A stretch of 64,000 nucleotides of DNA from positions 159,490-223,489 of the forward strand of contig JAFZAH010000023.1 of NCBI GenBank assembly GCA_017548275.1. Direction: 5' to 3'. Below the pieces are notes generated by a model that ran no database searches, had not been told where the DNA came from, and was given only the letters and a program-made list of their open reading frames with translations. This document shows positions 4,071 through 62,552 of the stretch, piece by piece; the stretch's first letter is position 1, and the number at the start of each line of letters is the position of its first letter. Both the position numbers and the translations under genes were made by a program. The stretch is from Prevotella sp. (lineage in GTDB: Bacteria > Bacteroidota > Bacteroidia > Bacteroidales > Bacteroidaceae).

Positions 4071-5261
4071 ATGAAAATTCTAGTATTAAATTGCGGTTCA
4101 TCGTCTATCAAGTATGCCTTGTATGACATGGACACAAAAACAGTGATGACATCGGGCGGCGCAGAGCGCGTAGGACTTGATGGAGCATTTGTGAAAGTGA
4201 AACTGGCTAATGGCGAGAAGAAACAGATTATGCACGACATACCCGAGCATACCGAGGGCGTGAAGTTCATCTTCTCACTGCTCACCGACCCCGAGATCGG
4301 TGTCATCAAAGACCTGAAAGAGATTGACGCCGTGGGTCACCGTATGGTGCACGGAGGTGAAAAATTCAATAAGAGCGTCATCCTCACCGACGAGGTGCTC
4401 AAGGTGTTTGAGGAGTGCTCCGACCTCGCCCCGCTGCATAACCCCGCTAACTTGAAGGGTGTCAACGCCGTGAAGGAACTGATGCCGGGACTGACACAGG
4501 TGGGTGTGTTTGACACCGCTTTCCACCAGACCATGCCCCCGAAGGCTTATATGTATGCCATCCCGTACGAACTCTATGAGAAGTACGGCATCCGCCGATA
4601 CGGATTCCACGGCACCAGCCACCGCTATGTTTCGGCACGTGCCTGCGAGTTCTTAGGCATCAAGGCTGAAGGCACCAAGATGGTGACTTGCCACGTGGGT
4701 AATGGCGGTTCCATCTGTGCTGTGAAAGACGGCAAATGCGTGGACACCTCCATGGGTCTCACTCCGCTCGAGGGCCTGATGATGGGTACCCGTGCCGGTG
4801 ATATCGACGGCGGTGCCGTGACGTTTATCGAGAAGAAACTCGGTCTGGATGCCGACGGTATGTCCAACCTGCTCAATAAGAAGAGCGGTGTGGCTGGTCT
4901 GACCGGCGGCAAGAGCGACATGCGCGACGTGGAGCAGGCTGCCCGCGAAGGCGATGACCGTGCTCGTTTGGCACAGGAAATGTACTTCTATCGCATCAAA
5001 AAATACATCGGCGCATACGCTGCAGCCATGGGCGGACTCGATGTCATCGTGTTCACTGCCGGCGTGGGCGAGAATCAGGTAAGCATGCGTTCCGAGGTCT
5101 GTAAAGACATGGAGTTCTTGGGCGTGAAGTTCGACGAGGAGAAGAACAATGTGCGCGGCGAAGAGGCCGTCATCTCTGCCGACGACTCACGTGTCAAGGT
5201 TTTGGTCATACCTACTGACGAGGAACTGATGATTGCCACCGACACGATGAATCTGTTGTAG
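4071..5261 (+). CDS. ackA: Acetate kinase AckA
   Basis: Transfers phosphate from acetyl phosphate to ADP, the ATP-yielding step after Pta. The 396-residue length is standard. Motifs: N-terminal LVLNCGSSSIKYALY (about residues 3-17), VGHRMVHGGEKF with the conserved HGG, FDTAFHQTMP (catalytic Asp), YGFHGTSHRYV (about 181-191), TCHVGNGGSI, MGLTPLEGLMMGTRAGDIDGG, and the C-terminal VFTAGVGENQ. A heptamer repeat array abuts the start codon. A hairpin terminator at 5366-5400 separates it from the convergent lpxH. Identification is secure. Confidence 0.97.
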   Translation: MKILVLNCGSSSIKYALYDMDTKTVMTSGGAERVGLDGAFVKVKLANGEKKQIMHDIPEHTEGVKFIFSLLTDPEIGVIKDLKEIDAVGHRMVHGGEKFNKSVILTDEVLKVFEECSDLAPLHNPANLKGVNAVKELMPGLTQVGVFDTAFHQTMPPKAYMYAIPYELYEKYGIRRYGFHGTSHRYVSARACEFLGIKAEGTKMVTCHVGNGGSICAVKDGKCVDTSMGLTPLEGLMMGTRAGDIDGGAVTFIEKKLGLDADGMSNLLNKKSGVAGLTGGKSDMRDVEQAAREGDDRARLAQEMYFYRIKKYIGAYAAAMGGLDVIVFTAGVGENQVSMRSEVCKDMEFLGVKFDEEKNNVRGEEAVISADDSRVKVLVIPTDEELMIATDTMNLL

Positions 5262-14483: not shown

Positions 14484-14797
14484 AAAGGTAAAAGAGTCTC
14501 TCATTAAAGTATTAAAACAATTGGTATAATTCATTCTGTACATTCTTTCATTGTGGTGAATTATACCAATTGTTCTTATTTCTTTCCTAATCAAAATCCG
14601 CTAATCCGTTGTCTCTATGGATTAGGGTTTAGAGTTTAGGGTTTAGTGTCCTATTAGGGGAGTACTCTTTTGCTCTTTGCTCCTTTCCCTCTATCAATTA
14701 CAATCCGTCTAATCCGTCAAATCCGTTGTCTTTTTTTGTATTCGTAAAATTCGCTTAATTCGTAGTCGCAAATAAACGTCGGGTGGGTAGTGACTTC
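14484..14797. other. Gene-free gap with a perfect 18-bp hairpin and low-complexity repeats
   Basis: AACAATTGGTATAATTCA (14516-14533) and its exact inverse TGAATTATACCAATTGTT (14557-14574) enclose a 23-base loop; a pyrimidine-rich run follows, so the hairpin may be a terminator or a small inverted-repeat element. The rest has iterated TAATCCG(T/C) motifs (14590-14770) and AGGGTTTAG repeats near 14625-14650. I see no coding sequence. Confidence 0.6.
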
Positions 14798-15754: not shown

Positions 15755-16072
15755 ACGATAATCATTTAAGGTTGTGTTTTCGTATGCAAAGTAAATGTTT
15801 TTTTTTGAGATATGCTCATTTCTCTCCAAAAAAATCGATAAATATTGAACTTTTATAAAAAATAACATTTCATCTTTCTCAAGTGTCGAAAAAAAGTAGT
15901 TACTTTGTAGGGGGAAAACCGACCCCAATCTCTCGATAGTTAAAAGGGCGTTAGCCAGTTCCCCTCCCATGTAGGGGCGATTTAGTCCTTAAGCGGACAA
16001 AATCTTCAAGCAGGGGTGGGGTCAGTAATTTAAAACCTCAAACCTCAAACCTCAAACCTCAAATCAAATACT
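15755..16072. other. Divergent intergenic region between threonine dehydrogenase and kbl
   Basis: Contains a TACTTTG-type -7-like element for each direction (near 15786-15792 on the minus strand and 15901-15907 on the plus strand), each one base short of TAnnTTTG. It also contains a degenerate REP-like segment (CCCCTCCCATG...GGGGTGGGG, about 15960-16021) and the AAACCTC array. No coding sequence was seen. Confidence 0.5.
16033..16060. repeat. AAACCTC heptamer, four perfect tandem copies before kbl
   Basis: Four exact 7-base copies, followed by AAATCAAATACT and then the kbl ATG at 16073. The array occupies the 5' leader, only 12 bases from the start codon. Slippage here would change leader length without affecting the reading frame. 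Confidence 0.9.
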
Positions 16073-23820: not shown

Positions 23821-25665
23821 ATGGAAATGAAGAAACCCGACAAAGTCTCCAAAATCTTTCTCTATGTAAGTCTGTTGGCTTTCATGGCTTTTGTCTTATA
23901 TATTTTTCACATCAATCAAGAGGTGTTTTATACGGCACATGACCGTTCTGAATTTGTTGTCGGAGAACCTTTTTACCACACTCTCCTTTCAAAGCCTTTT
24001 GGTCCGATGCAGTATGTGGGAGCCTGGCTTACACAGTTTTTCTATCATCCGGCTTTAGGTGCAGGGGTGTTAATAGCCATTTGGATTCTGATATTCTTTG
24101 TGGGTGTCAAAGCGTTCCGCCTGCACGGAAGTTCCATTGCGCTGATGCTTTTGCCCGTCGCTTGTCTGCTTGCATCTGTTGTCGATTTGGGTTATTGGAT
24201 TTATATCTCCACCATCAGAGGCTATTGGTTCTCGCAGTCCGTGGGTTATCTCGTCATGTTGCTGCTCTTATGGGCAGCACGATGCACTCCGCGTAAATGG
24301 CATATCGTATGGTATCTGGTCGCCTTTTTTATCTATCCGGTGCTTGGGTGGTTTGCTTTGCTATTCATACTGTGTCTGGCACTTTCCGAAAAACCGACTT
24401 GGCGTGAACTTATAGGCGTTGTCCTGCTTTTCTTTACCGCCCACATTTGGCATAACCAACTCTATTCGAACCTGAAAATCGACGATGTGGTGTTGGCTGG
24501 ATTTCCTCGTTTCTTTACTTCACTCGACAATAGTAAGCATCTTTCCATCCCGTTCTGGGTGCTCAGTGCTTTATCTATAATCATACCGCTATGCGAGAAG
24601 TTTCTGGCAACCAAAGTTCAAGGTCTTTCGACGAGCGAAACAGCAAAGCCGAGCGTAAAGTTCAAAATTCATAGTTTTGTCGTTCCCGTCTTTTGTGCCG
24701 TTGCTGGCATCGTCTTCACCTTATCTTTGATGTACTACGACAAGAACTATATCAACGAGATGCGCATGGTGCGCCATGCCGAGGATAACAACTGGAAGGA
24801 GATTCTCCGTATGGCGGAGGAGAATCCGAAACCGACCCGCACGATGGTTTTCCTCAAGAACATAGCCCTGATGAACGAAGGCGGCCTGCTCGACCGTTCG
24901 TTTAAATTGGGCAACGACGCTGTCAAACTCAACAACCCTGATTCGCTCCATGTCACCCTTTTGGAAATCGCTTCGCCGCTTGTTTACTACAACTATGGTA
25001 TGATAAATGAGGCCATCCGATTGAATTTCGAAAATGGCATACAATATGGTTTCTCGCCCTTCTTGTTGAAGACGCTTTCCCGCTGTGCCTTGGCTGCTGG
25101 AGATGAGAAATTGGTAGAACGCTATACCACTATATTACATCATCATCCTTTCTATGGTAACTGGCAGCCTGCTCCTGTCTCAGAAAAGGTCAAGGAACTG
25201 CAGAAAGCCTACCCCGACGAACTCACCGGTGTGGAGAACAGCGACAGTTATATTGTCAATACGATTAGTCAATGGACCGATTCCGTCAGCAAGGTGGCTT
25301 CAGAACAGGCATTATTCTATTCCATGATACGTTGCGACTCTCGTCGCTTTTGGGCATCGTTGCGCAACTGGGTGAAATCGCACATGGATGAAGAATTCCC
25401 CCCGCATGCACAGGAAGCATATATGCTATACATGGAAAAGGCCCCGGAAAAGAAGCGCATCATGCTCCCTGTCAGTCAGACTGTCTATGACCGTTACAAG
25501 CGGTTCTGGGATACACTTGAAAACCTGGCAAAACCTGGAATGACTCTTGAACAGGTTGGTGAAAAGATGCGTGAAGAATTTGGTGACACCTACTGGTGGT
25601 ACAATCTTTTCGGAAATAAGTTTTTTATCGCAAATAGACCTCTTGGTTATGAACTACATTCATAA
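23821..25665 (+). CDS. Polytopic membrane protein with C-terminal helical domain (DUF6057-like), copy 1
   Basis: 614 residues if started at MEMKKPDKVSK. The N-terminal half (about residues 10-310) is rich in transmembrane segments, among them FLYVSLLAFMAFVLYIF, ALGAGVLIAIWILIFFVGV and FVVPVFCAVAGIVFTLSLMYY. The C-terminal half is soluble, with helical repeats; it opens YINEMRMVRHAEDNNWKEILRMAEENPKP and ends near YWWYNLFGNKFF. It is homologous in layout to the protein at 27194-29026 (shared start-of-C-terminal-domain pattern and a final 'GDTYWWY' / 'GGTYWYY' run). I assign it to the Bacteroidales DUF6057-like group from memory, so the name is tentative. Its function is unknown. Confidence 0.7.
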   Translation: MEMKKPDKVSKIFLYVSLLAFMAFVLYIFHINQEVFYTAHDRSEFVVGEPFYHTLLSKPFGPMQYVGAWLTQFFYHPALGAGVLIAIWILIFFVGVKAFRLHGSSIALMLLPVACLLASVVDLGYWIYISTIRGYWFSQSVGYLVMLLLLWAARCTPRKWHIVWYLVAFFIYPVLGWFALLFILCLALSEKPTWRELIGVVLLFFTAHIWHNQLYSNLKIDDVVLAGFPRFFTSLDNSKHLSIPFWVLSALSIIIPLCEKFLATKVQGLSTSETAKPSVKFKIHSFVVPVFCAVAGIVFTLSLMYYDKNYINEMRMVRHAEDNNWKEILRMAEENPKPTRTMVFLKNIALMNEGGLLDRSFKLGNDAVKLNNPDSLHVTLLEIASPLVYYNYGMINEAIRLNFENGIQYGFSPFLLKTLSRCALAAGDEKLVERYTTILHHHPFYGNWQPAPVSEKVKELQKAYPDELTGVENSDSYIVNTISQWTDSVSKVASEQALFYSMIRCDSRRFWASLRNWVKSHMDEEFPPHAQEAYMLYMEKAPEKKRIMLPVSQTVYDRYKRFWDTLENLAKPGMTLEQVGEKMREEFGDTYWWYNLFGNKFFIANRPLGYELHS

Positions 25666-27193: not shown

Positions 27194-29026
27194 ATGAAGC
27201 ATATCCATCTTATATACACGCTCCTTTTCGGTGTGGCGGTCCTCTTGTTTTTCGGGTTGGCATATCCGAATCATCTGCATCATCAGGAGCAGTATCAACT
27301 GTTCCTCTTCGACTGTGACTATGTGTGGGGTATTGTCAAACTCCCCGGTGGCGTCGCCGACTTGTTAGGCCGTTTTTGCACACAGTTCTTCCTTTATGCT
27401 TGGGTGGGCGCACTGATTATAGCGGTTCTGCTCATGGCGGTGCAACTCTGGACGCTTCGCCTGTTCAATGTTCAACGTTCAACGTTCAATGTTCAACGTT
27501 CAACGTTCAATGTTCAATGGTTCTATGGCCTGAGTTTTGTGCCTTCGTTCCTGCTTTGGCTCTTCCTGCTCGACGAGAATGCTCTGTTGGGTGGTGTATG
27601 GGCAGTCTTGCTCACCCTTCACGCCTCTTGGGCCTTCGACAAGTTGCCTGATGGTTGGTTGCGGCGCATTCTGCTCGTTGTCGCTGTTCCCGTACTCTAT
27701 TGGATAGTGGGTCCCGTCTGTGTGTTGTTCTTCCTCCTGCAGATTTTCCAACGTTCTACTTCCAATAATGTTCAACGTTCAACGTTCAATAATGCCCAAC
27801 GTCCAACTTCCAATAATGTTCAACGTTCAACGTTCAACGTTCAACGTATAATCTTGCTTGTCCTTTTGCTTGCCATGCCCTTCATCCTGTCTTGGCTCCC
27901 GGTATCCGCCCGTAGTCTGTGGACAGGCATCCATTATCACCGCTATCCGACAGAAACCCCGGTCCTCCTTTGGGCAGCGGTTTTGTCCGTCTTCGTCCTT
28001 GTTCTCATTGTTCAACGTTCAACGTCCAATGTTCAACGTTCAACGTTCAATGTTCAACGTCCATTGTTTTTTGCTCTGGTGGCTGTTTGTATGGGATTCT
28101 TCGTCTGGAAGAACAGCAATTTCAAGGCGGAAAAGGTGATGCAATATGATTTCATGGCCTGTCACCAGCAATGGAACCGCATTATCGGTACCATTAATGC
28201 TGACAAACCGAACAACCAGATAGGTGTCACGGTGCAGAATCTCGCCTTGGCAATGCGCGGTCTGCTCGGCGACCACATGTTCGAATTCAACCAGAACGGC
28301 ACCTTAGGCCTTTTACCCGATGTCGAGCGCGATGCGACCAGCCCTATGCCCACAGCCGAGGCGTTCTACCAGTTAGGTCTGGTGAATGTGGCACAACGGT
28401 CGGTGTTCGAGGCTCAGGAGGCCATTCTTGACTTCCAAAAGAGTGCCCGCTGTTACAAACGGCTGGCGCAGACCAACCTCATCAACGGCAACTACGATGT
28501 GGCACGCAAATATCTCATGGCGTTGCAGAAAACCCTCTTCTACCGCGATTGGGCCAATGAGACACTGCCCCTGTTAGGAGATGAGGAGGCGATAAACAAA
28601 CATCCCGAATACGGACGCATGCGCCAGTTGGTTTGCAAAGAAGACTTTTTCTTTGGTGACCGAGTGACCCCCGAGATGCTCCAGAAACTTTTCTTAAGCA
28701 ACACAGACAACCGGCTGGCCTATGAATATCTGATGGCCTATTATCTGCTGACGGGCGACCTCGACAACTTTGCCAACTATGTAGGGTGGGGCGAGAAACT
28801 GGGTTATGAGGCCATTCCGCGCCATTTCCAAGAGGCGTTGGCACTACGGTGGAGTATTCATCATGAGCCAGACGAACGTATGCCCATTCAGGTCAGTCCG
28901 GCCATCGCGCAGCGTTTCACCCATTTCATCTCGTTCATCCAGTCACCGGCTATGAGCGACGAGGGACTGAAGCAAAACTTCGGCGGCACTTATTGGTATT
29001 ACTATTTCAATTCCAATCAACGATGA
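27194..29026 (+). CDS. Polytopic membrane protein with C-terminal helical domain, copy 2, containing three in-frame heptamer arrays
   Basis: 610 residues from MKHIHLIYTLLFGVAVLLFFG. Same plan as the protein at 23821: membrane segments in the first ~310 residues, then a soluble helical domain beginning near FKAEKVMQYDFMACHQQWN and ending GGTYWYYYFNSNQR. It differs in carrying three low-complexity stretches between hydrophobic segments, at about residues 91-109, 185-218 and 273-289, each made of iterated NVQRSTF encoded by 7-base TTCAACG/TTCAATG units. The equivalent sites in copy 1 have ordinary short loops (FRLHGSS, SEKPTWRE), so these stretches look inserted. The stop overlaps the next gene (ATGA). 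Its function is unknown. Confidence 0.7.
   Translation: MKHIHLIYTLLFGVAVLLFFGLAYPNHLHHQEQYQLFLFDCDYVWGIVKLPGGVADLLGRFCTQFFLYAWVGALIIAVLLMAVQLWTLRLFNVQRSTFNVQRSTFNVQWFYGLSFVPSFLLWLFLLDENALLGGVWAVLLTLHASWAFDKLPDGWLRRILLVVAVPVLYWIVGPVCVLFFLLQIFQRSTSNNVQRSTFNNAQRPTSNNVQRSTFNVQRIILLVLLLAMPFILSWLPVSARSLWTGIHYHRYPTETPVLLWAAVLSVFVLVLIVQRSTSNVQRSTFNVQRPLFFALVAVCMGFFVWKNSNFKAEKVMQYDFMACHQQWNRIIGTINADKPNNQIGVTVQNLALAMRGLLGDHMFEFNQNGTLGLLPDVERDATSPMPTAEAFYQLGLVNVAQRSVFEAQEAILDFQKSARCYKRLAQTNLINGNYDVARKYLMALQKTLFYRDWANETLPLLGDEEAINKHPEYGRMRQLVCKEDFFFGDRVTPEMLQKLFLSNTDNRLAYEYLMAYYLLTGDLDNFANYVGWGEKLGYEAIPRHFQEALALRWSIHHEPDERMPIQVSPAIAQRFTHFISFIQSPAMSDEGLKQNFGGTYWYYYFNSNQR
27464..27519. repeat. Heptamer array 1 in the membrane-protein gene (eight units)
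   Basis: Eight consecutive 7-base units alternating TTCAATG and TTCAACG. Three units (21 bases) encode one FNVQRST heptapeptide, so a change of one or two units would shift the reading frame. Confidence 0.9.
27747..27846. repeat. Heptamer array 2 in the membrane-protein gene (degenerate plus four perfect units)
   Basis: Degenerate TTCCAATAATG segments mixed with TTCAACG units and ending in four perfect TTCAACG copies (27819-27846). Encodes about 33 residues of the type NNVQRSTF between two hydrophobic segments. Confidence 0.85.
28011..28059. repeat. Heptamer array 3 in the membrane-protein gene (seven units)
   Basis: Seven units: TTCAACG twice, TCCAATG, TTCAACG twice, TTCAATG, TTCAACG. In frame, encoding a run of the NVQRSTF type. 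Confidence 0.9.
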
Positions 29027-32317: not shown

Positions 32318-35300
32318 CTACTTCACGACCACCTTCTTTCCGTTCACGATATACACGCCCTTCTGGGTCGGTTTCTTATCGAGTTTCTTGCCGTCTAAGG
32401 TGAAGTAATCACCCCCCTCTCCCGTTGGAGAGGGGTTGGGGGTGAGGCTGTCGATGCCCGTCGTCTGACTGTAGCCCACATCGATGCCCGCAGCGGTATC
32501 GGCCAGTGTCGTTTTCACACCGTCAGGGTCTGAGACCTTGGCGTTGAGGATACGCACCTCGTACATGCCCTCCTCATAGTCGGCGGGGATGTTGACCGTG
32601 ATGCGTGCCACCTCGCCGTCATTGCCTGCGAAGGTGTACAAGCGGCCTGTTGTGCGGTTCTCGGTCATCGAGGCGCAGAGAATCTTCATCGATCCGTCGC
32701 TCATCAGCGAACTGCCGAAATAGTCGGGTTTGCCCATGGTGGTGCGCTTGTCGCTCATCTCTGCCATGGCGAGGCCGTCGGCATTGGTGGCGATGGTGAT
32801 GCCCTCGGGCAACAGCAGACTGAACTCCAGACCGCTTACCTCCACATTGTTCTTCATCCTGACAGAAATCACCTGCTGTGTGCCGGGCTCTGCCGTCACT
32901 GGCTCCACGTAGATGGCATTATCCATCGCGTCGATGTTGGTGTCAACCGCTGCAGCCCGTCTGGGTGCGCCCAATAATGTGTTATTGCTGTGCAGGATGA
33001 TGTTGGCGATACCTGTCAGGTCGGCTACGTCGATTTCACCGTCGGGACCGCCCGTTGTGCTGCCCGCCACGTCGGCTGCCGAGGGATTGAATCCTTCAGT
33101 CGGTAAGCCGAGCAGGTACTTGGCCAGCACGGTAAAGTCGGCCACATCCACCTCTTCGTCGCCGTCAACGTCGCCCGGGGTGACGGGAGCCATCTCCACG
33201 ATATTGGTGAAATTGCACCAGACGGTAGCATTCTGATAGGCTTCCACACAACCTTCCGGCACATAGAGCGTGGCGGTGTCGTAGCAGTCGAACGTCCATC
33301 CGCCTGTAATGACAGGTGGCGTCGTGGCATAACTGTATATTTCCGTCAGCGGACAATTGGTGAAAGCACCATTACCGATACTCGTCACATTCTTCGGCAA
33401 GGTAAGGCTCGTCAGGCTGGTACAGGTGGAAAATGCAATTTCTCCGATGGTGGTCACGCTCTCGGGCAAGTAGACATTAGAGATGTTGCCGCAATGGAAG
33501 AACGCCCCGCTGCCAATGGTTGTCATTCCGGGGGCAAGACTCACGCTCGTCAACGTGGAACACATAATGAACCCCCACTCGGAGATGCCTGTCAAAGTGT
33601 ATTCTATGTTCTCATAACCGTCAAAAACCATCACCTTGTTGGAAGTAAGGTTGAGTACCGTCGGGTCGCTACTGCCTTTACTGACTTCTGCCGTCTGGTC
33701 GTCATGCAGAACCAGTCTATAACTGCCAAAATCGCCTATCTGGTTTATATCTAAGAAATCCTGCCATCCTTCAGCCTCCTGATAGAGATTCGGGTTGGAC
33801 ATCACGTTAAGTCTGATCATGCCTGACGGGAACACGGTGGAATTGATGGTCGGCGGTTCTTCGCTATGGACATATACTTGACACCAAGTTGGTACATTGG
33901 CAAATGCACCGTCGCCGATGCTCGTCAGGCTCTCGGGTAAGGCTATTGGAGACAACTGATAGCAGTCGGCAAAAGCCCCTGCCGCGATGGTCGTCACAGA
34001 GTAAGTCCCGCTCAGAGTGGTCACCTCCGCAGGGATGGCAACTCTGGTTAATGAGGAATAATCGCCCGCTATGACTGTGGCCGTGCCGTCATCGTTCAAA
34101 TGGTAGGTGATGCCGTCGATGATTACCTCGGTTGGCATCTCGGAGATACTCTTGAAATCTTTCCATATATCAGCACTCTGATAAGCGGACACTGTGCCGA
34201 TGGGTACAAAGAGGTCGGCTTGCCCTTTGGCCGAGAACGTCTGAGTGCCTGTGGTCGTCGGTGGCGTGGAAGCCTTGCAGACGACCCGCTCCAGAGCGGT
34301 GCAGCCCCTGAAAGCATTCAGGCCGATGCTTGTCATTGTCGTGGGTAACGTCACATATTTGAGGCTTGTACAGTATCTAAAAGTGTTTGATAGGCAGGTT
34401 GTCACACCCTCGCAGAAGACCACTTCTACCAAATCAGGACAATTGCTGAAGGCAAACGTTCCGACAGTGCAGGTACCAGGAATGGACACGGTCTGCAGTC
34501 CGGATCCTATGAAAGCATTCAGGCCGATAGACGTTACACCCTCGGGGATGATGATGCTCGTCAGGCCGGTGCAACCGGAGAATGCATCTTCTTCTATGGT
34601 TTTCAGACCTTCACAAAGCGTCACATCGGTAAGGCGTATGCAGTTAGAGAACGCGTTTACTCCGATGCTTACCACATCGTATGAATCGCCGTTGAAGTTG
34701 ACGGTGCCAGGTATCAACACACTGGTCAGCGAGGAATAGTCGCCCTGAATCACCGTAGCCGTGTGGTTGGTTGTGTCGTACTCATATAAGAGCGTCTCGA
34801 CGATTTCGCTGAAATTCTGCCAATATGTGGCGGCCTCGTAGGCGCTCTTGCTGCCCATGGGCACGTAGAGCGTGGCGCCATAGACATCTGAGAAAGTATC
34901 ACTATATAAATTTATACCTTGCGGATTCCCAGACGTGCAGTAAATACTCGTCAAATTGGTATCAAACATGAATGCAGCGGATTCGATGTCCGTCAGAGTT
35001 GAGGGTAAGGTCACGCACGTAAGACTGCGGCACACACAGAATGCCATATAACCGATGCTGGTCACACCTTCGGGAATGTTGATGCTTGTCAGACCGGAAC
35101 CTTGAAAAGCACACGGGCCGATGGTCGTCACACTTTCGGGGATAGTGGTACCCTTGCATCCTTCAATCAATATGTTGTTGGCCGTCTCAATAATGGCATT
35201 GCAATTATTCCTTGAATCATAAACCGGGTTTCCGGTTTCAACCTGCATGCTTGTCACGTTGGGACAATGGGCGAATGCCTGCTTATCGATGCTTGTCACG

Positions 35301-35707
35301 CTGGCGGGAATGGTAATACTCGTCAGGCCGGTGCAGTATTCGAACGGAAACGCGCCGATGGTTGTCAGCGTTGAGGGTAAGTCCAAACTTGTCAGGCCGG
35401 TGCAGCCAGCGAATGCATTTTTTTCTATGGTTTTCAGACCTTCACAGAGCGTCACATCGGTAAGCCCGTTGCAGTTAAAGAACGCGTTTTCGCCGATGCT
35501 AACCACATCGTATGAATAGCCGCTAACGTTGATGGTGCCAGGTATCAACACACTGGTCAGAGAGGAGTAGTTGTCCTGAATCACCGTTGCTTCGAAAGTG
35601 GCAGAATTGAGACTGTACTTGATGTTGTTGACGACGGTCTCATTTTGAGCCAACATGCCGATAGGGACTGCCAGCATCATGAGCAATAGGGATAGTAGTT
35701 TTTTCAT
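32318..35707 (-). CDS. BspA-like leucine-rich-repeat surface protein with dockerin- and cohesin-like modules (A)
   Basis: 1129 residues. Signal peptide about 1-21 (MKKLLSLLLMMLAVPIG...). Many LRR_5/BspA repeats (about 25-840) of the pattern TSIGxxAFxxCxxLTSxxIPxxVT, interrupted by 'ATLYVPxGSxxAYxxAxxWxxF' segments typical of the family. A dockerin-like pair of Ca2+-loop repeats (about 844-905; DVDGDEEVDVADFTVLAKYLLG and DGEIDVADLTGIANIIL). A cohesin-like beta domain (about 925-1070; VSGLEFSLLLPEGITIATN, DGEVARITVNIP). The C-terminal 40 residues, ending GVYIVNGKKVVVK, resemble a type IX secretion sorting tail. Residues about 1088-1099 (LTPNPSPTGEGG) are encoded by a REP repeat. It is a paralogue of B. 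Confidence 0.85.
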   Translation of the reverse strand: MKKLLSLLLMMLAVPIGMLAQNETVVNNIKYSLNSATFEATVIQDNYSSLTSVLIPGTINVSGYSYDVVSIGENAFFNCNGLTDVTLCEGLKTIEKNAFAGCTGLTSLDLPSTLTTIGAFPFEYCTGLTSITIPASVTSIDKQAFAHCPNVTSMQVETGNPVYDSRNNCNAIIETANNILIEGCKGTTIPESVTTIGPCAFQGSGLTSINIPEGVTSIGYMAFCVCRSLTCVTLPSTLTDIESAAFMFDTNLTSIYCTSGNPQGINLYSDTFSDVYGATLYVPMGSKSAYEAATYWQNFSEIVETLLYEYDTTNHTATVIQGDYSSLTSVLIPGTVNFNGDSYDVVSIGVNAFSNCIRLTDVTLCEGLKTIEEDAFSGCTGLTSIIIPEGVTSIGLNAFIGSGLQTVSIPGTCTVGTFAFSNCPDLVEVVFCEGVTTCLSNTFRYCTSLKYVTLPTTMTSIGLNAFRGCTALERVVCKASTPPTTTGTQTFSAKGQADLFVPIGTVSAYQSADIWKDFKSISEMPTEVIIDGITYHLNDDGTATVIAGDYSSLTRVAIPAEVTTLSGTYSVTTIAAGAFADCYQLSPIALPESLTSIGDGAFANVPTWCQVYVHSEEPPTINSTVFPSGMIRLNVMSNPNLYQEAEGWQDFLDINQIGDFGSYRLVLHDDQTAEVSKGSSDPTVLNLTSNKVMVFDGYENIEYTLTGISEWGFIMCSTLTSVSLAPGMTTIGSGAFFHCGNISNVYLPESVTTIGEIAFSTCTSLTSLTLPKNVTSIGNGAFTNCPLTEIYSYATTPPVITGGWTFDCYDTATLYVPEGCVEAYQNATVWCNFTNIVEMAPVTPGDVDGDEEVDVADFTVLAKYLLGLPTEGFNPSAADVAGSTTGGPDGEIDVADLTGIANIILHSNNTLLGAPRRAAAVDTNIDAMDNAIYVEPVTAEPGTQQVISVRMKNNVEVSGLEFSLLLPEGITIATNADGLAMAEMSDKRTTMGKPDYFGSSLMSDGSMKILCASMTENRTTGRLYTFAGNDGEVARITVNIPADYEEGMYEVRILNAKVSDPDGVKTTLADTAAGIDVGYSQTTGIDSLTPNPSPTGEGGDYFTLDGKKLDKKPTQKGVYIVNGKKVVVK
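32412..32447. repeat. REP-like repeat inside BspA-like gene A
   Basis: CCCCCCTCTCCCGTTGGAGA followed by GGGGTTGGGGGTGAGG. It is translated in frame as LTPNPSPTGEGG just before the sorting tail (GDYFTLDGKK...). Confidence 0.85.
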
Positions 35708-46395: not shown

Positions 46396-46433
46396 ACATT
46401 CACCCATGTCTCTCAATTAGAGTATTATTGTCT

Positions 46434-46491
46434 AAACTCCTACACTCCAATACTCCTACACTCCTACACTTCTTCACTCCTTCACTTCCAT
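46434..46491. repeat. CACTCCTN-type octamer array upstream of the RND adaptor gene
   Basis: About seven near-copies of CACTCCTA/CACTCCTT/CACTTCTT with an 8-base period, preceded by ATTGTCTAAACTCC. The same lead-in and octamers recur at 47878-47918. Confidence 0.75.
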
Positions 46492-46639: not shown

Positions 46640-47770
46640 ATGAAAAAGAAAACCATCCTTTTTCTGGCTGCGGTAATCATCATGGTCGCCTGCGGCAAAA
46701 AAAGTGAGAATCAGGAGAAACCACCCGTGAAAGTGAAAACCGAACAGGTGAGCACCTCGTACGAGGGTGCCGGACAAACGTATGTCGGCATCGTGGAGGA
46801 GAGTGAAGCCACTGCCGTGAGTTTCACGTCGATGGGCGTGGTGCGCCGTATGCTCGTGAGCGAAGGCCAATATGTGAGCCGCGGACAGTTGTTGGCCGAG
46901 ATGGATCCCTCGACCATGAGCAACAGTGTGACAGCCGCAGCGGCAACCACCAGTCAGGCCAATGACATGGTGGCTCAGGCACAGGCTACGTACGACCAGG
47001 CCAAAGATGCCTACGACCGCATGAAACTGCTGCACGACAACGGCTCGTTGCCTGAGATTAAATGGATAGAGATGGAAACCAAACTTCAGCAGGCGGAGAC
47101 GATGTTGAAATCGGCCAAGTCGAGCGTAAAATCGGCCAGTGCCACAGAGAGAATCGCTCGCAAAGGCCTTTCCGATACACGACTCGTGGCTCCCGTGAGC
47201 GGTGTCGTCGGAAAAAAACAGGTCAACGCGGGCGAGACGGCAATGCCCTCGCAGTCAGTGGTCACCATCCTCAACATCAACACGGTGAAGGTGAAGGTGT
47301 CGGTGCCTGAGGCGGAGATGTCCGCCATCGGCGAAAACACCCGTTCGCTGGTCCGTGTCGAGGCCGCCAACAGACAGGTGCCGGGCGGTAGGGTAGAGAA
47401 GGGGGTGCAGGCCGACGCCATGACACACACCTACGACATACGGGTGAATGTGGCCAACAGCGACCGCAAACTGCTGCCGGGCATGGTGGCCAATGTCACG
47501 CTATATACAGGCCGCAAGGGCGACGGTTCGATGGTCTCAGGCGGTGGTGTCACCGTGCCGGTCAATTGTGTGCAGCGCCGTGCCGACGGCACCCATTTCG
47601 TATGGGTTATAAACAAAGACAACAAGGCGCACCGTCAGACCGTGACTCTCGGCCCGACCTCGGACAACCGCGTCTATATCATCGACGGTCTATCCGACGG
47701 ACAGCGGGTGGTTATCGACGGTTACCAGAAACTGAGTGAAGGAACGAAGACTCAGGACGTTGAACATTGA
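46640..47770 (+). CDS. RND efflux periplasmic adaptor (HlyD/MFP family) lipoprotein
   Basis: 376 residues; bridges the inner-membrane RND pump and the outer-membrane channel. Lipobox IMVAC (Cys18), then GKKSENQEKPPVKVKTEQV. The membrane-fusion fold is seen in SYEGAGQTYVGIVEESEATAVSFTSMGVVRRMLVSEGQYVSRGQLLAEMD (barrel-sandwich entry), a helical hairpin rich in Gln/Ala (about residues 95-160), GLSDTRLVAPVSGVVGKKQVNAGETA (lipoyl-like exit, about 176-201) and a beta-barrel domain to the end. The last codons DVEH and the stop lie in a heptamer repeat. The pump gene follows 154 bases downstream. Confidence 0.93.
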   Translation: MKKKTILFLAAVIIMVACGKKSENQEKPPVKVKTEQVSTSYEGAGQTYVGIVEESEATAVSFTSMGVVRRMLVSEGQYVSRGQLLAEMDPSTMSNSVTAAAATTSQANDMVAQAQATYDQAKDAYDRMKLLHDNGSLPEIKWIEMETKLQQAETMLKSAKSSVKSASATERIARKGLSDTRLVAPVSGVVGKKQVNAGETAMPSQSVVTILNINTVKVKVSVPEAEMSAIGENTRSLVRVEAANRQVPGGRVEKGVQADAMTHTYDIRVNVANSDRKLLPGMVANVTLYTGRKGDGSMVSGGGVTVPVNCVQRRADGTHFVWVINKDNKAHRQTVTLGPTSDNRVYIIDGLSDGQRVVIDGYQKLSEGTKTQDVEH

Positions 47771-47788
47771 ACGTTGGACGTTGTGCAT
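47754..47788. repeat. Heptamer array covering the end of the adaptor gene
   Basis: AGGACGT, TGAACAT, TGAACGT, TGGACGT, TGTGCAT: five 7-base units, the reverse complement of the TTCAACG family. The stop TGA (47768-47770) lies in the third unit. Confidence 0.8.
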
Positions 47789-47886
47789 TAAGGTCGTTAA
47801 GTAGGCTAAAGACCTTAAGGAGGGAACAGATGGGGAACGACGCAGACATCCCCTACAACCACTCCCTATTCGCAAACTATTGTCTA

Positions 47887-47918
47887 AACTCCTCCACTCC
47901 TTCACTCCTACACTCCTA
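47887..47918. repeat. Octamer array directly before the RND pump gene
   Basis: AACTCCTC, CACTCCTT, CACTCCTA, CACTCCTA: four 8-base units ending six bases before the ATG at 47925, in the ribosome-binding region. Confidence 0.85.
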
Positions 47919-55065: not shown

Positions 55066-55107
55066 ATCAATGTTCAACGTTCCACGTTCAATGTTCAACG
55101 TACAACA
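55066..55107. repeat. Heptamer array covering the end of purL
   Basis: TTCAACG, TTCCACG, TTCAATG, TTCAACG, TACAACA with 7-base spacing (55073-55107). On the minus strand the purL stop TGA lies in the fourth unit (55095-55097); the last codons ENVVR lie in the array. Confidence 0.8.
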
Positions 55108-58100
55108 TTCTCAATCCATTTTCTGGCATTCACGAAGGCCTCAATCCACGGAGTCACTTCATCGTTGAGGTGACGGGCGGGATAACAACCGCACTGCCAG
55201 GGGAAGATGGCGCGCTCCAGGTGGGGCATCATCGCCAGATGACGGCCGTCGGCGCTGCAGATGCCTGCCACGTCGTAGTCCGAGCCGTTGGGGTTGGCGG
55301 GATAGCCGCTGTAGTTGTATTTAGCCACTACGTGATACTTGTCGGCAGCCTCGGGCAGAGAGAATTTTCCCTCACCGTGAGCCACCCAGATGCCGAGTTT
55401 GCTGCCGCTCAGCGAGCCGAACATCACACTTTTGTTCTCGGGGATGGCCACGCTCAGGTAACCGCTCTCGAATTTATGCGAGTCGTTGTGCAACATACGT
55501 GCGCGCTGCTCGTGCTCGGGATTGATCAGGTTGAGTTCCACCATCAGTTGGCAACCATTGCAGATGCCCAATGACAGCGTGTCTTTACGGGCATAGAAAC
55601 GGTCGAGCGCCTCTTTCGCCTTCGGATTGTAGAGGAAGGCTCCGGCCCAACCTTTCGCGCTGCCCAGCACATCGCTGTTGGAGAATCCGCCGCAGAACAC
55701 AATCATATTGATGTCTTCCAGAGTCTCGCGTCCGCTGATGAGGTCGGTCATCATCACGTCTTTCACGTCGAAGCCCGCCAGATAGAGCGAGTAAGCCATC
55801 TCGCGCTCACCATTGGTACCCTTCTCACGGATGATGGCTGCTTTCACACCTGACGGTTTGCGGCGGTCGGCGCTGATGCCATATTGTGACAACTTACCTG
55901 AAAAACCTTTGGGGAGTACAATCTCCACGGGTTGGTTCTTGTAGTTGTCGAAACGCTCGCGAGCCTTGCCGTTCTTGCTTTGTTTGCGGTCGAGCAGATA
56001 TGAGGTGCGATACCACACATCGCGCAGGACATCGATGTCGAACGTGTGTGTATAGTCGTCTTTCTTCACCACGACGGTGCGCTCTTTGGGTGCGGGATAA
56101 CCTATCTTGGCGAATCCTACGCCCATGTCTTCGAGATATTCGCGCAGGTCGTTCTTATGTTCGTCGCTCACTTGGATGACCACGCCGGGATTCTCCGCGA
56201 AGAGTGTTTTCACGAGGTCGTCACCGCCCATGTCATGCAGGTTGATGTGCATACCGCCTGTCGTGTTGGCGAAGCACATCTCCAGCAAGGTGGTAATCAG
56301 TCCGCCTGCGCTGACGTCATGACCCGCCATAATCCAACCACGGCGAATCAACTCCTGTATGGCGTTGAAGCAGTCGGCAAAATACTCGGGATTATCGACC
56401 GTGGGAACATCACTGCCCACGCGGCCTAAAGTTTGTGCGAAGGCCGAACCGCCGAGACGTTGCTCGCAGAAACTGAAATCGATATGATAGAGCGATGAGT
56501 TCTTGTCGTTGACCATCACGGGCGACACCACCTTTCGGATGTCGCTCACCTCGCCGCCGGAAGTGACGATGACGGTGCCCGGAGAGATGATTTTCTCACC
56601 GTTGGGATATTGCTGGCTGAGTGAGAGCGAGTCTTTACCCGTGGGCACGTTGATGCCAAGGGCGCAGCAGAAATCGCTCAATGCTTCGACGGCATTGTAC
56701 AGACGTGCATCTTCGCCTTTCTGTGAACGGCAGGGCCACATCCAGTTGGCGGAGAGCGAGAGGCTCTTCATGCCGTCGGCCAAAGGTGCCCAGACGATGT
56801 TTGTCAAAGATTCTGCCACCGACAGCACACTGCCCGCCTCGGGTGAGGCCAATCCTGCTTGTGGGGCGTGACCGAGTGCTGTGGCAATACCTTTGCGGCC
56901 ACGGTAGTCGAGTGCCACCACACCACAGTCGGACAACGGCAATTGCAACTCGCCCTGGCACTGCTGACGGGCAATCTTACCGGTCACCGAACGGTCCACC
57001 TTATTGGTCAGCCAGTCTTTGCAGGCCACAGCCTCCAGTTGCAGCACACGCTGCACATAGTCGTCTATTTGGTCTTGGGTATATGTCACACCTTCGTAAG
57101 TGCGTTCCACGGTCTCGTCGCGCATGACGGTCTTGGGTGAGTGGCCGAACATCTGCGCCACATCCAGGTCGAAAGGTTTCACACCGTCGCCCTGCACAAA
57201 CGAGAAATGGGCGTCGCCGGTCGTCTCACCCACCACATACAACGGGGCACGCTCGCGCTCGGCGATACGGCGCACATGGTCGATATGTTTCTCGTCGATG
57301 AGCAGTCCCATGCGTTCCTGACTCTCGTTGGCGATAATCTCTTTGGCTGAAAGTGTGGTGTCGCCGATGGGCAGTTGGGTCATGTCGATGCGTCCGCCGC
57401 ACTCCTCGACCAGTTCAGAGAGACAGTTGAGGTGACCCGCCGATCCGTGGTCATGAATGCTTACCACAGGGTTGACCTCTTCTTCGCAGAGTGCGCGCAC
57501 CAAGTTGTAGGCGCGTTTCTGCATCTCGGGGTTGGCACGCTGCACGGCGTTCAGTTCGATACCGTTGGAATAGCGGCCCGTATCTACCGACGACACGCTG
57601 CCGCCGCCCAGACCGATGCGGTAATTGTCGCCGCCCACGACCACGATTTTGTTGCCTTTCTGCGGCTCGCGCTTCAGACAGTCACGTTTGGTGCCATAGC
57701 CTACGCCGCCCGCCAGCATGATGACTTTGTCGTAAGCGTATTTCTCGTCGCCCTCCTGATGTTCGAAGGTCAGCACCGAACCGCAGATGAGCGGCTGGCC
57801 GAACTTATTGCCGAAGTCGGAGGCGCCGTTTGAGGCTTTGATGAGTATCTGCTCAGGCGTCTGGTAAAGCCATTGGCGCACGGGCAGGATATCTTCCCAA
57901 TCGCGCAGTTCCACGTCATCGCCCTTGTCGTCTTTCAATCGTGGATAGGCGGTCATATACACCGCTGTGCCTGCAATGGGCCATGAACCCGTGCCGCCGC
58001 CCATACGGTCGCGTATCTCGCCGCCGGTGCCGGTGGCTGCGCCGTTGAACGGCTCGACAGTGGTGGGGAAATTGTGTGTCTCTGCCTTGAGCGAGATGAC

Positions 58101-58820
58101 GCTCTCCACGTCAGTCACCTCGAAATAGTCGCTGGTCGATTGGTCTTTGGGGGCAAATTGCTCAACGACGGGTCCCTGTGCAAAAGCCACATTATCTTTG
58201 TATGCTGAGAGGATTTTGTTGGGGTTCTCTTTCGTCGTTTTCTTAATCATGGCGAAGAGCGAAGACTCTTTCTCCTCGCCGTCGATGATGAACGTACCGC
58301 CGAAAATCTTGTGACGGCAGTGCTCGGAGTTGATTTGTGCAAAACCGAATATCTCAGAGTCGGTGAGCGGACGGCCCAACTGGCTCTCGATATGGTGCAG
58401 GTATTCGATTTCTTCGGGCGAGAGGGCCAGTCCCTCCTGCTCATTGTATTCCTCCAGATTCTCCACCTGTTTGATGGGTTCAGGCGTGATATGTACGGTA
58501 AAAATGTCCTGGTTCAACCCGTGATACATACGTTGCAGCATCGGGTCGTGGTCGGCGTCCTCGTTGGCTACGGGGAAATACTCCTCGATGCGGCGGATGC
58601 CGTGCAGGTTCATGTTCTGAGTGATTTCCACGGCGTTGGTGCTCCATGGGGTAACCATCTCGCGCCGGGGACCGACGAAATATCCGTCGAGGGCGTCACT
58701 GTCTATCACTTGCGCATCGCCGTAGAGCCATGACAACTCATTGATTTCTTCCTGAGTGAGTGCATGATCGGCCTCGGTGGCGATGATGCTCTGAGAGGGG
58801 GTTTTGAAAAAACGAATCAT
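55095..58820 (-). CDS. purL: Phosphoribosylformylglycinamidine synthase (single-chain PurL)
   Basis: 1241 residues from MIRFFKTPSQSIIATEADHAL (start at 58820). It makes FGAM from FGAR, glutamine and ATP in purine synthesis. The large single-chain form combines the PurS-like N-terminal region (about 1-150), the two synthase domains (LAGGVGYGTKRDCLKREPQKGNKIVVVGGDNYRIGLGGGSVSS) and a C-terminal glutaminase domain with the nucleophile motif GICNGCQLMVEL (about 1090-1101) and the downstream His-Glu region. The early motif GFAQINSEHCRHKIFGG is conserved. The stop codon is provided by a heptamer repeat array. Confidence 0.96.
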   Translation of the reverse strand: MIRFFKTPSQSIIATEADHALTQEEINELSWLYGDAQVIDSDALDGYFVGPRREMVTPWSTNAVEITQNMNLHGIRRIEEYFPVANEDADHDPMLQRMYHGLNQDIFTVHITPEPIKQVENLEEYNEQEGLALSPEEIEYLHHIESQLGRPLTDSEIFGFAQINSEHCRHKIFGGTFIIDGEEKESSLFAMIKKTTKENPNKILSAYKDNVAFAQGPVVEQFAPKDQSTSDYFEVTDVESVISLKAETHNFPTTVEPFNGAATGTGGEIRDRMGGGTGSWPIAGTAVYMTAYPRLKDDKGDDVELRDWEDILPVRQWLYQTPEQILIKASNGASDFGNKFGQPLICGSVLTFEHQEGDEKYAYDKVIMLAGGVGYGTKRDCLKREPQKGNKIVVVGGDNYRIGLGGGSVSSVDTGRYSNGIELNAVQRANPEMQKRAYNLVRALCEEEVNPVVSIHDHGSAGHLNCLSELVEECGGRIDMTQLPIGDTTLSAKEIIANESQERMGLLIDEKHIDHVRRIAERERAPLYVVGETTGDAHFSFVQGDGVKPFDLDVAQMFGHSPKTVMRDETVERTYEGVTYTQDQIDDYVQRVLQLEAVACKDWLTNKVDRSVTGKIARQQCQGELQLPLSDCGVVALDYRGRKGIATALGHAPQAGLASPEAGSVLSVAESLTNIVWAPLADGMKSLSLSANWMWPCRSQKGEDARLYNAVEALSDFCCALGINVPTGKDSLSLSQQYPNGEKIISPGTVIVTSGGEVSDIRKVVSPVMVNDKNSSLYHIDFSFCEQRLGGSAFAQTLGRVGSDVPTVDNPEYFADCFNAIQELIRRGWIMAGHDVSAGGLITTLLEMCFANTTGGMHINLHDMGGDDLVKTLFAENPGVVIQVSDEHKNDLREYLEDMGVGFAKIGYPAPKERTVVVKKDDYTHTFDIDVLRDVWYRTSYLLDRKQSKNGKARERFDNYKNQPVEIVLPKGFSGKLSQYGISADRRKPSGVKAAIIREKGTNGEREMAYSLYLAGFDVKDVMMTDLISGRETLEDINMIVFCGGFSNSDVLGSAKGWAGAFLYNPKAKEALDRFYARKDTLSLGICNGCQLMVELNLINPEHEQRARMLHNDSHKFESGYLSVAIPENKSVMFGSLSGSKLGIWVAHGEGKFSLPEAADKYHVVAKYNYSGYPANPNGSDYDVAGICSADGRHLAMMPHLERAIFPWQCGCYPARHLNDEVTPWIEAFVNARKWIENVVR

Positions 58821-62378: not shown

Positions 62379-62409
62379 CAAAGATACGGTTAAGCGAGCA
62401 AAAAGCAAA
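62379..62409 (-). promoter_or_regulatory. Promoter of the aspartyl-protease-like gene, -33 box in a 73-bp repeat
   Basis: On the minus strand TTTG (62406-62409), a 19-base spacer and TATCTTTG (62379-62386). The -7 box ends only four bases before the ATG, leaving no room for a normal leader. The -33 box and part of the spacer lie in the first copy of the 73-base repeat. Confidence 0.65.
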
Positions 62410-62552
62410 ACTTTTTTTGCTTTTTCGAGCGTGAGTATCTTCGGCGGAGCCAAAGTAGCCTCATAAGCGAGCAAAAAGCAAAACTTTTTTTGCTTTTTCG
62501 AGCGTGAGTGTCTTCGGCGGAGCCAGAGATGATGATTAAACGAGCAAAAAAT
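62391..62552. repeat. 73-bp tandem repeat (two full copies and a start of a third)
   Basis: Copies begin at 62391, 62464 and 62537, a period of exactly 73 bases, each opening TAAGCGAGCAAAAAGCAAAA (third copy TAAACGAGCAAAAAA only). Each full copy contains a palindrome AAAAAGCAAAA/CTTTTTTTGCTTTTT, which could act as a terminator on either strand, and TCTTCGGCGGAGCC. Confidence 0.88.

Follow-up and report, generated by a model that had tools for sequence, protein, structure and literature searches.

The heptanucleotide arrays found within a membrane-protein gene of Prevotella are probably local copies of a genome-wide GTTCAAY repeat family, lodged in length-tolerant loops of a DUF6057 protein as passengers that have at most a linker role and do not act as a switch. 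The earlier note on this DNA had named tolerated passengers as one of two possibilities, the other being phase variation. The passenger reading is supported by the genome-wide occurrence of the heptamer, by heptamer swaps between species, and by the 21-nt step in length at the first array site.

The DUF6057 gene and its arrays

The gene occupies positions 27194 to 29026 (plus strand) of the window, i.e., of the whole stretch of 64,000 nucleotides that was analysed (contig C23:159490-223489 of host genome G000). It is a single open frame of 610 amino acids, the product of which matches the PF19529 (DUF6057) profile with an E-value of 2.6e-158 (residues 4-605; profile positions 3-567 of 569). 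It should be noted that the host genome is a draft (3.22 Mb, 56 contigs, 87% complete), so that unit counts could carry assembly error. Named relatives of the 610-residue protein come mostly from ruminant-gut Prevotella and Prevotellaceae genomes, and the host is a probable rumen bacterium.

Four GTTCAAY arrays are found in the open frame of this gene, all on the plus strand. Array A (27463-27518; site I) has eight units and is translated as FNVQRST. Site II consists of arrays B1 (27770-27790, three units) and B2 (27818-27845, four units), which are separated by degenerate units and extra AAT triplets, with a TRF period of 24 nt there, and site III is array C (28010-28058, seven units). The earlier count of eight, several and seven units at three sites is thus confirmed, the middle site being split (3 + 4) and degenerate. 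Equally correct was the statement that a paralogue lacks the arrays: no period-7 run was found in the gene at 23824-25665 (plus strand), which belongs to the same Pfam family. The window contains 39 two-unit heptamer matches with up to two mismatches; 100 shuffles gave 1.89 such matches on average and never more than 6.

The arrays encode residues 90-109, 193-199, 209-218 and 273-289, and the hydrophobic segments of the protein, according to hydropathy, span residues 60-93, 154-189, 212-242, 252-280 and 285-305. By hydropathy the arrays thus lie between the segments, as previously suggested, and partly overlap segment edges. The term "loop" as used here rests on hydropathy and on the places where orthologues vary in length. 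The frame arithmetic proved accurate: when one or two units are added to or removed from any one of the four arrays, the computed product has 110-320 residues, whereas a change of three units gives 603 or 617 residues. In the arrays of this gene, the variable C/T position of the unit is occupied by T in 6 of the 7 cases where it is silent in the codon, versus 1 of 15 other positions (one-sided Fisher p about 0.0006, calculated by hand). Such a bias is consistent with 21-nt block growth, or with selection for Arg/Thr over Cys/Met, inside the gene.

Recurrence of arrays in orthologues

Orthologues were collected from 70 loci. An alignment was built of the window gene, its paralogue and the 65 loci for which more than 95% lies in a single open frame, a few of them being partial at a contig end. 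Of the 66 proteins counted (the 65 loci and the window), 39 have a period-7 array at one or more of the three sites. Site I arrays occur in 21 proteins and are built of 10 distinct units, site II arrays occur in 2 proteins, and site III arrays in 28 proteins with 13 distinct units, the window being included in each count (n = 66). In 53 of 56 arrays at these sites, the unit would hold a stop codon if reversed.

The closest protein match among 40 relatives, from genome G019, has arrays at sites II and III that are built of another heptamer, CTCACCY. The presence of different heptamers in the same loops of different species indicates that the loops are recurrent sites, while the unit is not fixed. 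Two G019 contigs end inside the site II heptamer stretch of this gene (the end of L051, G019:C38, and the start of L032, G019:C6), and heptamer repeats may fragment metagenome assemblies.

The length of site I falls into two modal classes, which are 21 nt apart. It is 16 residues in 24 of 64 orthologues, none of which has an array, and 23 residues in 15, of which 14 have one; in the window gene it is 30 residues. The recurrence of arrays at the same loops, together with a codon-phase bias that keeps Arg/Thr rather than Cys/Met in the window gene, would be expected if the NVQRSTF repeats were functional linkers, selected to tune loop length or surface chemistry. Such a role is, in our opinion, very unlikely to account for the arrays, as the 24 short site I forms are free of them, the unit sequences, and hence the peptides, vary widely, unrelated sequence occupies the same loops in other proteins, and the GTTCAAY repeat is also present outside proteins.

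Array length differences between related species

Array lengths were compared between related species in 31 distinct cases from 23 pairs (18 in the DUF6057 gene and 13 in neighbouring genes). Lengths were read from flank to flank, both directions of a pair were counted once, and arrays with flanks unaligned or less than 60% identical were left out; since pairs share members, the 31 comparisons are not independent events. The arrays were equal in length in 12 comparisons, with 40-nt flanks 68-100% identical between the species. They differed by 21, 42 or 63 nt in 7, including one (L080 vs L078) in which the second copy is array-free. In 10 comparisons the difference was another multiple of 3, mostly with one side not a clean array, the repeat having been replaced; in one of the 10, L124/L127 near 6049, the unit number differs and neighbouring sequence brings the net change to 3 nt. 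The remaining 2 differences (40 and 61 nt) are not divisible by 3, and in both the flanking sequence is altered too. None of the 31 between-species comparisons showed a difference of one or two units. The 42-nt class is illustrated by L062 and L063, which share 98.3% identity across 5973 aligned bases and whose site I arrays differ by exactly 42 nt. Arrays of equal length with point-diverged units (L104/L122, L070/L102) do not have the look of hypermutable sequence.

Reading of unit changes from single alignment gaps was given up as unreliable. In a control of 13 close pairs, only 48 of 119 in-gene alignment gaps of at least 5 nt were divisible by 3; gaps placed by the pairwise aligner are therefore a poor guide, and flank-to-flank lengths were used instead.

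These lengths bear directly on phase variation, in which slipped-strand changes of a single 7-nt unit would switch DUF6057 on and off, several arrays allowing several frame combinations. The unit length is not a multiple of 3, and a change of one or two units truncates the product to 110-320 residues, as such a switch would need. Similar repeats are known in Haemophilus influenzae, where the available part of one report describes heptanucleotide repeats, four in four genomes, in or by genes such as those of the hmw adhesins and a TonB receptor; they vary between strains, and those in or near surface genes were proposed to act as switches through promoter output or reading frame (PMC2651432). 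The present arrays resemble these in having 7-nt units, some of which are inside open frames, but differ in that the host heptamer is widely dispersed, unlike the few repeats described there. We nevertheless regard a phase-variable DUF6057 gene, one of the two options of the earlier note, as highly improbable. The complete lack of one- and two-unit differences among the 31 comparisons, 12 of which show equal lengths, argues against it, as do the 65 of 70 loci that lie more than 95% in one open frame. The heptamer also ends the housekeeping genes cysS, ispD and dnaG, which is the pattern of a dispersed repeat rather than of a contingency locus.

The open frames are partly a sampling condition, because a gene whose frame is lost has a lower chance of being detected or retained. 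Five of the 70 loci (L093, L105, L125, L129 and L130) do not lie more than 95% in one frame. L105 contains an in-frame stop, and the gene has no listed period-7 array; in L125 the frame shifts near 4672-4687, some 50 nt away from a degenerate heptamer-like tract; in L129 a piece is missing near 457-478, away from the arrays. The frame shift of L093 falls, according to which relative it is compared with, somewhere from about 4570 to 4624, and the heptamer tract 4591-4608 of site II is part of these roughly 50 nt. In L130, which is distantly related (33% identity over residues 65-229), the frame stops at 4301, at the start of a 91-nt array. The frame is thus broken at a heptamer tract in 2 of 70 loci, by decay or assembly error possibly, and these two breaks are hints in favour of switching. 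Restriction to three-unit steps, which had been taken beforehand to speak against a switch, was found between species, with L093 and L130 as the exceptions.

Spread of heptamers in the host genome and the genus

When up to two mismatches are allowed, the host genome contains 316 overlapping three-unit GTTCAAY matches, compared with 0 for a reversed control pattern. This genome-wide spread went unnoticed in the initial reading of the sequence alone. Contigs C23, C7, C32 and C12, in which arrays were known beforehand, contain 33 period-7 arrays and 8 period-8 arrays in 461 kb. No tandem array of period 3 to 6 was found in the same 461 kb, and no period-7 array in third-order Markov copies, one per contig. 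Period 7 is thus dominant among the short tandem repeats of the host genome. Separate GTTCMAY arrays number 36 in 694,699 bases, a set that was partly chosen for arrays. Further heptamer families of the AAACCTC, ATTCACA, TCTCACC, GGGCAAG and TTTAGGG types are also present. The idea of heptamer dialects, with one heptamer used by each species, was dropped. Units within an orthologue locus did resemble one another more than in shuffles (22 of 91 pairs; reached in 15 of 2000), an effect that was gone without the array-dense L130 (12 of 76 pairs; 411 of 2000), and the host genome itself holds several families.

Three-unit GTTCAAY matches with up to one mismatch are found in 52 of 120 genomes of the genus and in 15 of 295 genomes of an order-wide draw, the host being counted in both. 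G016, a one-contig genome of the genus, has a single period-7 array in the 200 kb sampled; array abundance thus differs strongly between species.

Several other repeats were observed in the window. An AAACCTC array of 4.4 units (16033-16063) is located 9 nt upstream of an ORF start; in stretches of the host genome, 7 of 8 arrays that share this consensus have a 5' end, in sense, as their nearest gene end, and reverse-oriented, TGA-holding AAACCTC arrays are found at 3' gene ends. A TTAGGGT array (14622-14646) has a similar counterpart on host contig C32; its unit is, as we take it, the plant-type telomere repeat, probably by coincidence. Two arrays of the 8-nt unit CTACACTC, about 1.4 kb apart (46432-46486 and 47884-47918), represent a second family with another period. 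A 73-nt tandem repeat at 62390-62550 has 2.2 copies with 88% matches, and an ORF of 1129 residues at 32318-35707 (minus strand), presumably BspA-like, has many leucine-rich-repeat-like segments.

Orientation of arrays and placement at stop codons

Gene calls were made by a simple ORF rule (ATG, at least 90 residues, longest first), so that the placement counts that follow are approximate. The four host contigs were found to contain 44 period-7 arrays of all families, of which 6 are in genes, 24 are nearest a 3' gene end and 14 are nearest a 5' end, although random placement would put 80% of them in genes. The array start lies between -25 and +8 of a stop codon in 21 of 38 non-genic arrays, compared with an expectation of 10.6% (binomial p 1.6e-11), and in 18 of these 21 the sense strand of the array carries a stop codon. 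The same test for start codons gave no excess (4 of 38 non-genic arrays; 10.6% expected). The arrays within genes on these contigs, 4 of which are from the DUF6057 gene, are stop-free in sense and stop-bearing in antisense in 6 of 6 cases.

The 36 GTTCMAY arrays of the larger set are placed as follows. Ten are inside an ORF, all in sense, two of the ORFs (90 and 156 residues) being doubtful; 21 are at a gene end in the antisense, TGA-bearing orientation, in 20 cases at a distance of -33 to +5 from the stop; and 5 are placed otherwise. The stop codon is the array's own TGA in 14 of the 20 near-stop arrays, and all three frames are used (distances -5, -12, -19, -33). Two examples are in the window. 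Three GTTCAAY units on the minus strand (47759-47779) lie at the 3' end of an RND adaptor gene (46640-47770, plus strand), and five units reading GTTCMAY on the plus strand (55072-55106) lie at the 3' end of a 1241-residue ORF (55095-58820, minus strand); in both, the TGA of a unit is the stop codon.

Truncation of genes by insertion was considered as the cause of gene-end arrays and rejected for most of the genes tested, as 7 of 10 look whole. Ten of at most 14 genes with the stop codon inside an array were checked for the reach of their NCBIfam profile matches, which end at most 7 positions from the profile end in seven: those for an AraC-type regulator (286/287), the RND adaptor (318/322), cysS (464/466), isochorismate synthase (348/349), a CobS-type protein (252/255), a phosphoglycolate phosphatase-type protein (206/213) and ispD (214/219). 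The AraC-, CobS- and phosphatase-type scores are under the NCBIfam curated cut-off, so that the exact names are loose; the CobS-type protein passes the Pfam cut-off. The dnaG match leaves the C-terminus uncovered, and two of the ten genes had no match in NCBIfam or Pfam.

A 3'-end rule common to all array-rich species was not retained as a claim, since its support is weaker in G071. In that genome 13 of 14 in-gene arrays of the GTTCAAY type are in the open orientation. Stretches chosen for their arrays yielded 22 that were assigned to a 3' end, and 13 of these lie close to the stop; at 3' ends, the TGA-bearing orientation of GTTCAAY was found 9 times and the open one 6 times. Ten further stretches gave 12 entries, of which one, a run of N, was discarded; 3 of the 6 non-genic arrays left are near a stop.

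A more far-reaching reading of these placements is that the native gene ends of some Prevotella species are supplied with a few heptamer "words" by a dedicated process with sequence specificity, the TGA face serving as a terminator and the stop-free face as in-frame filler; the DUF6057 gene would then display the coding face of a genome-wide punctuation. A TGA-bearing array has a stop in every frame, so that it would be a frame-independent terminator at any length, free to change in 14-nt steps, and the reversed, stop-free array would be a protein filler that changes by 21 nt only. We consider such a process distinctly unlikely. The single RVT_1 reverse transcriptase match in the host genome is neutral with regard to templated addition of heptamers.

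Internal order, borders and composite inserts

The order of unit variants outside genes has a 14-nt period. In 20 non-genic GTTCMAY arrays of at least 5 units (235 units in total), unit identity at lag 2 is 0.431, compared with 0.281 in shuffled arrays (0 of 2000 shuffles), and identical units are below chance at lags one and three. Six genic arrays of the host, one of which is in the doubtful 156-residue ORF, have a lag-3 identity of 0.50 versus 0.37 when shuffled (101 of 2000). No lag stands out in 21 orthologue arrays (lag 3: 981 of 2000 shuffles), and lag 3 is not significant in the 27 genic arrays pooled (233 of 2000). The 14-nt order outside genes is thus firmer than the weak lean toward 21 nt inside them.

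The borders of the arrays are sharp. Among the 35 host arrays with full flanks, GT follows 26 and AAY precedes 23, and unique sequence begins thereafter. In two other genes, arrays are located in linkers or variable stretches, joined to other modules. The P-type ATPase gene of L185 (13552-15765; HMA, E1-E2 ATPase and hydrolase domains) has two in-frame composite inserts with GTTCMAY arrays; the stretch after DKTGT seems, on our assumption about the usual size of this region, short for a full nucleotide-binding domain, which may be real or an assembly join. In the NRPS gene of L188 (9723-13826), GTTCMAY arrays are found in the linker that leads to the reductase domain and also ahead of TSGSTG, which we take to be the adenylation domain motif. 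All four inserts contain a GC-rich palindrome and some have GGAGCAAG-like runs as well, and copies of these modules are found elsewhere in the genome. More than 10 further matches to a dispersed GC-rich palindrome around CCCTCCCGAAAGGAGGG were observed in host contigs C7, C12, C23 and C32 and other stretches, and this palindrome is apparently a separate interspersed repeat. With palindromes, runs and heptamers, the genome carries several interspersed short repeats.

In-frame palindromic elements, such as the Rickettsia palindromic element, insert as a block. The sharp borders, with GT after 26 and AAY before 23 of the 35 arrays, and the joining of arrays in the ATPase and NRPS inserts to modules with copies elsewhere, would be consistent with the arrays themselves being short mobile elements with defined ends, inserted as blocks and not grown in place. 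A target-site duplication is unreadable in such arrays, because the element is its own repeat. The graded unit numbers at site I, with partial or divergent units in several species, speak against insertion as a block, which we deem unlikely.

Relation to described repeats and biological meaning

The reading that we favour, that of passengers in tolerant loops, suggests the following course of events. Copies of GTTCAAY would settle in length-tolerant loops of the membrane protein, and slippage or unequal recombination would then add and remove units. Inside genes, changes of one and two units would be purged by selection for an intact frame, there being presumably no such filter outside. With such purging, the step that remains visible would be 21 nt, i.e., seven residues (NVQRSTF) at a time.

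Simple sequence repeats in coding regions have reportedly been treated by Lin and Kussell. Heptamers are more frequent than other long simple repeats in the majority of surveyed genomes, for which an explanation through polymerase contacts has been given, as summarized in the available text of one paper (PMC4679880, citing Mrazek). The accessible sections of another describe GGGAATC and GGGGA(C/T)T arrays of Xanthomonas and Nostoc, with 186 and 183 patterns in two Xanthomonas; these are intergenic in 89% and 93% of cases in Xanthomonas and 68% in Nostoc, those of Xanthomonas are on average 28 nt from the 5' neighbour gene, and a role in phase variation was judged unlikely (PMC4692102). As far as those sections go, the present arrays are similar in that one heptamer is dispersed over the host genome, mostly between genes and near the 3' end of the upstream gene. 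They differ in that GTTCAAY has no run of G, in contrast to the G-rich Xanthomonas/Nostoc unit, which forms quadruplexes in vitro, in that several heptamers are present, in that host arrays overlap the stop codon itself, and in that in-gene arrays differ by 21-nt blocks.

Heptamer repeats of the TAACTGA type have been described in Beggiatoaceae, Cyanobacteria and a few Bacteroidetes, and in the Beggiatoaceae genome covered by the available excerpt they are mostly just upstream of start codons (PMC4679880). They, too, are dispersed direct heptamers with a preferred position relative to genes, but their sequence is different, and it is the host AAACCTC family (7 of 8) that comes nearer to this 5' pattern. 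Tandem repeats in ORFs of Borgs, as presented in the part of the report available, encode in-frame amino-acid repeats, often in membrane or extracellular proteins, with units divisible by three (PMC9879509). The in-ORF arrays described here also keep the frame; the host unit, unlike those of Borgs, is 7 nt, and three-unit blocks are what differs. A literature search for these heptamer arrays in Prevotella found none among the matches listed. Dispersed heptamers near gene ends were already known from Xanthomonas; the frame and orientation pattern, and arrays that act as stop codons, are new here.

A single genome with one heptamer outside genes, at stop codons and inside genes provides a natural experiment on repeat growth and on the filter imposed by selection. 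It also raises a testable question, namely how the heptamer came to spread to many gene ends in some Prevotella-type species and to be nearly absent from G016. If our reading is true, a repeat in an open frame whose unit is not a multiple of three is, by itself, no evidence of phase variation.
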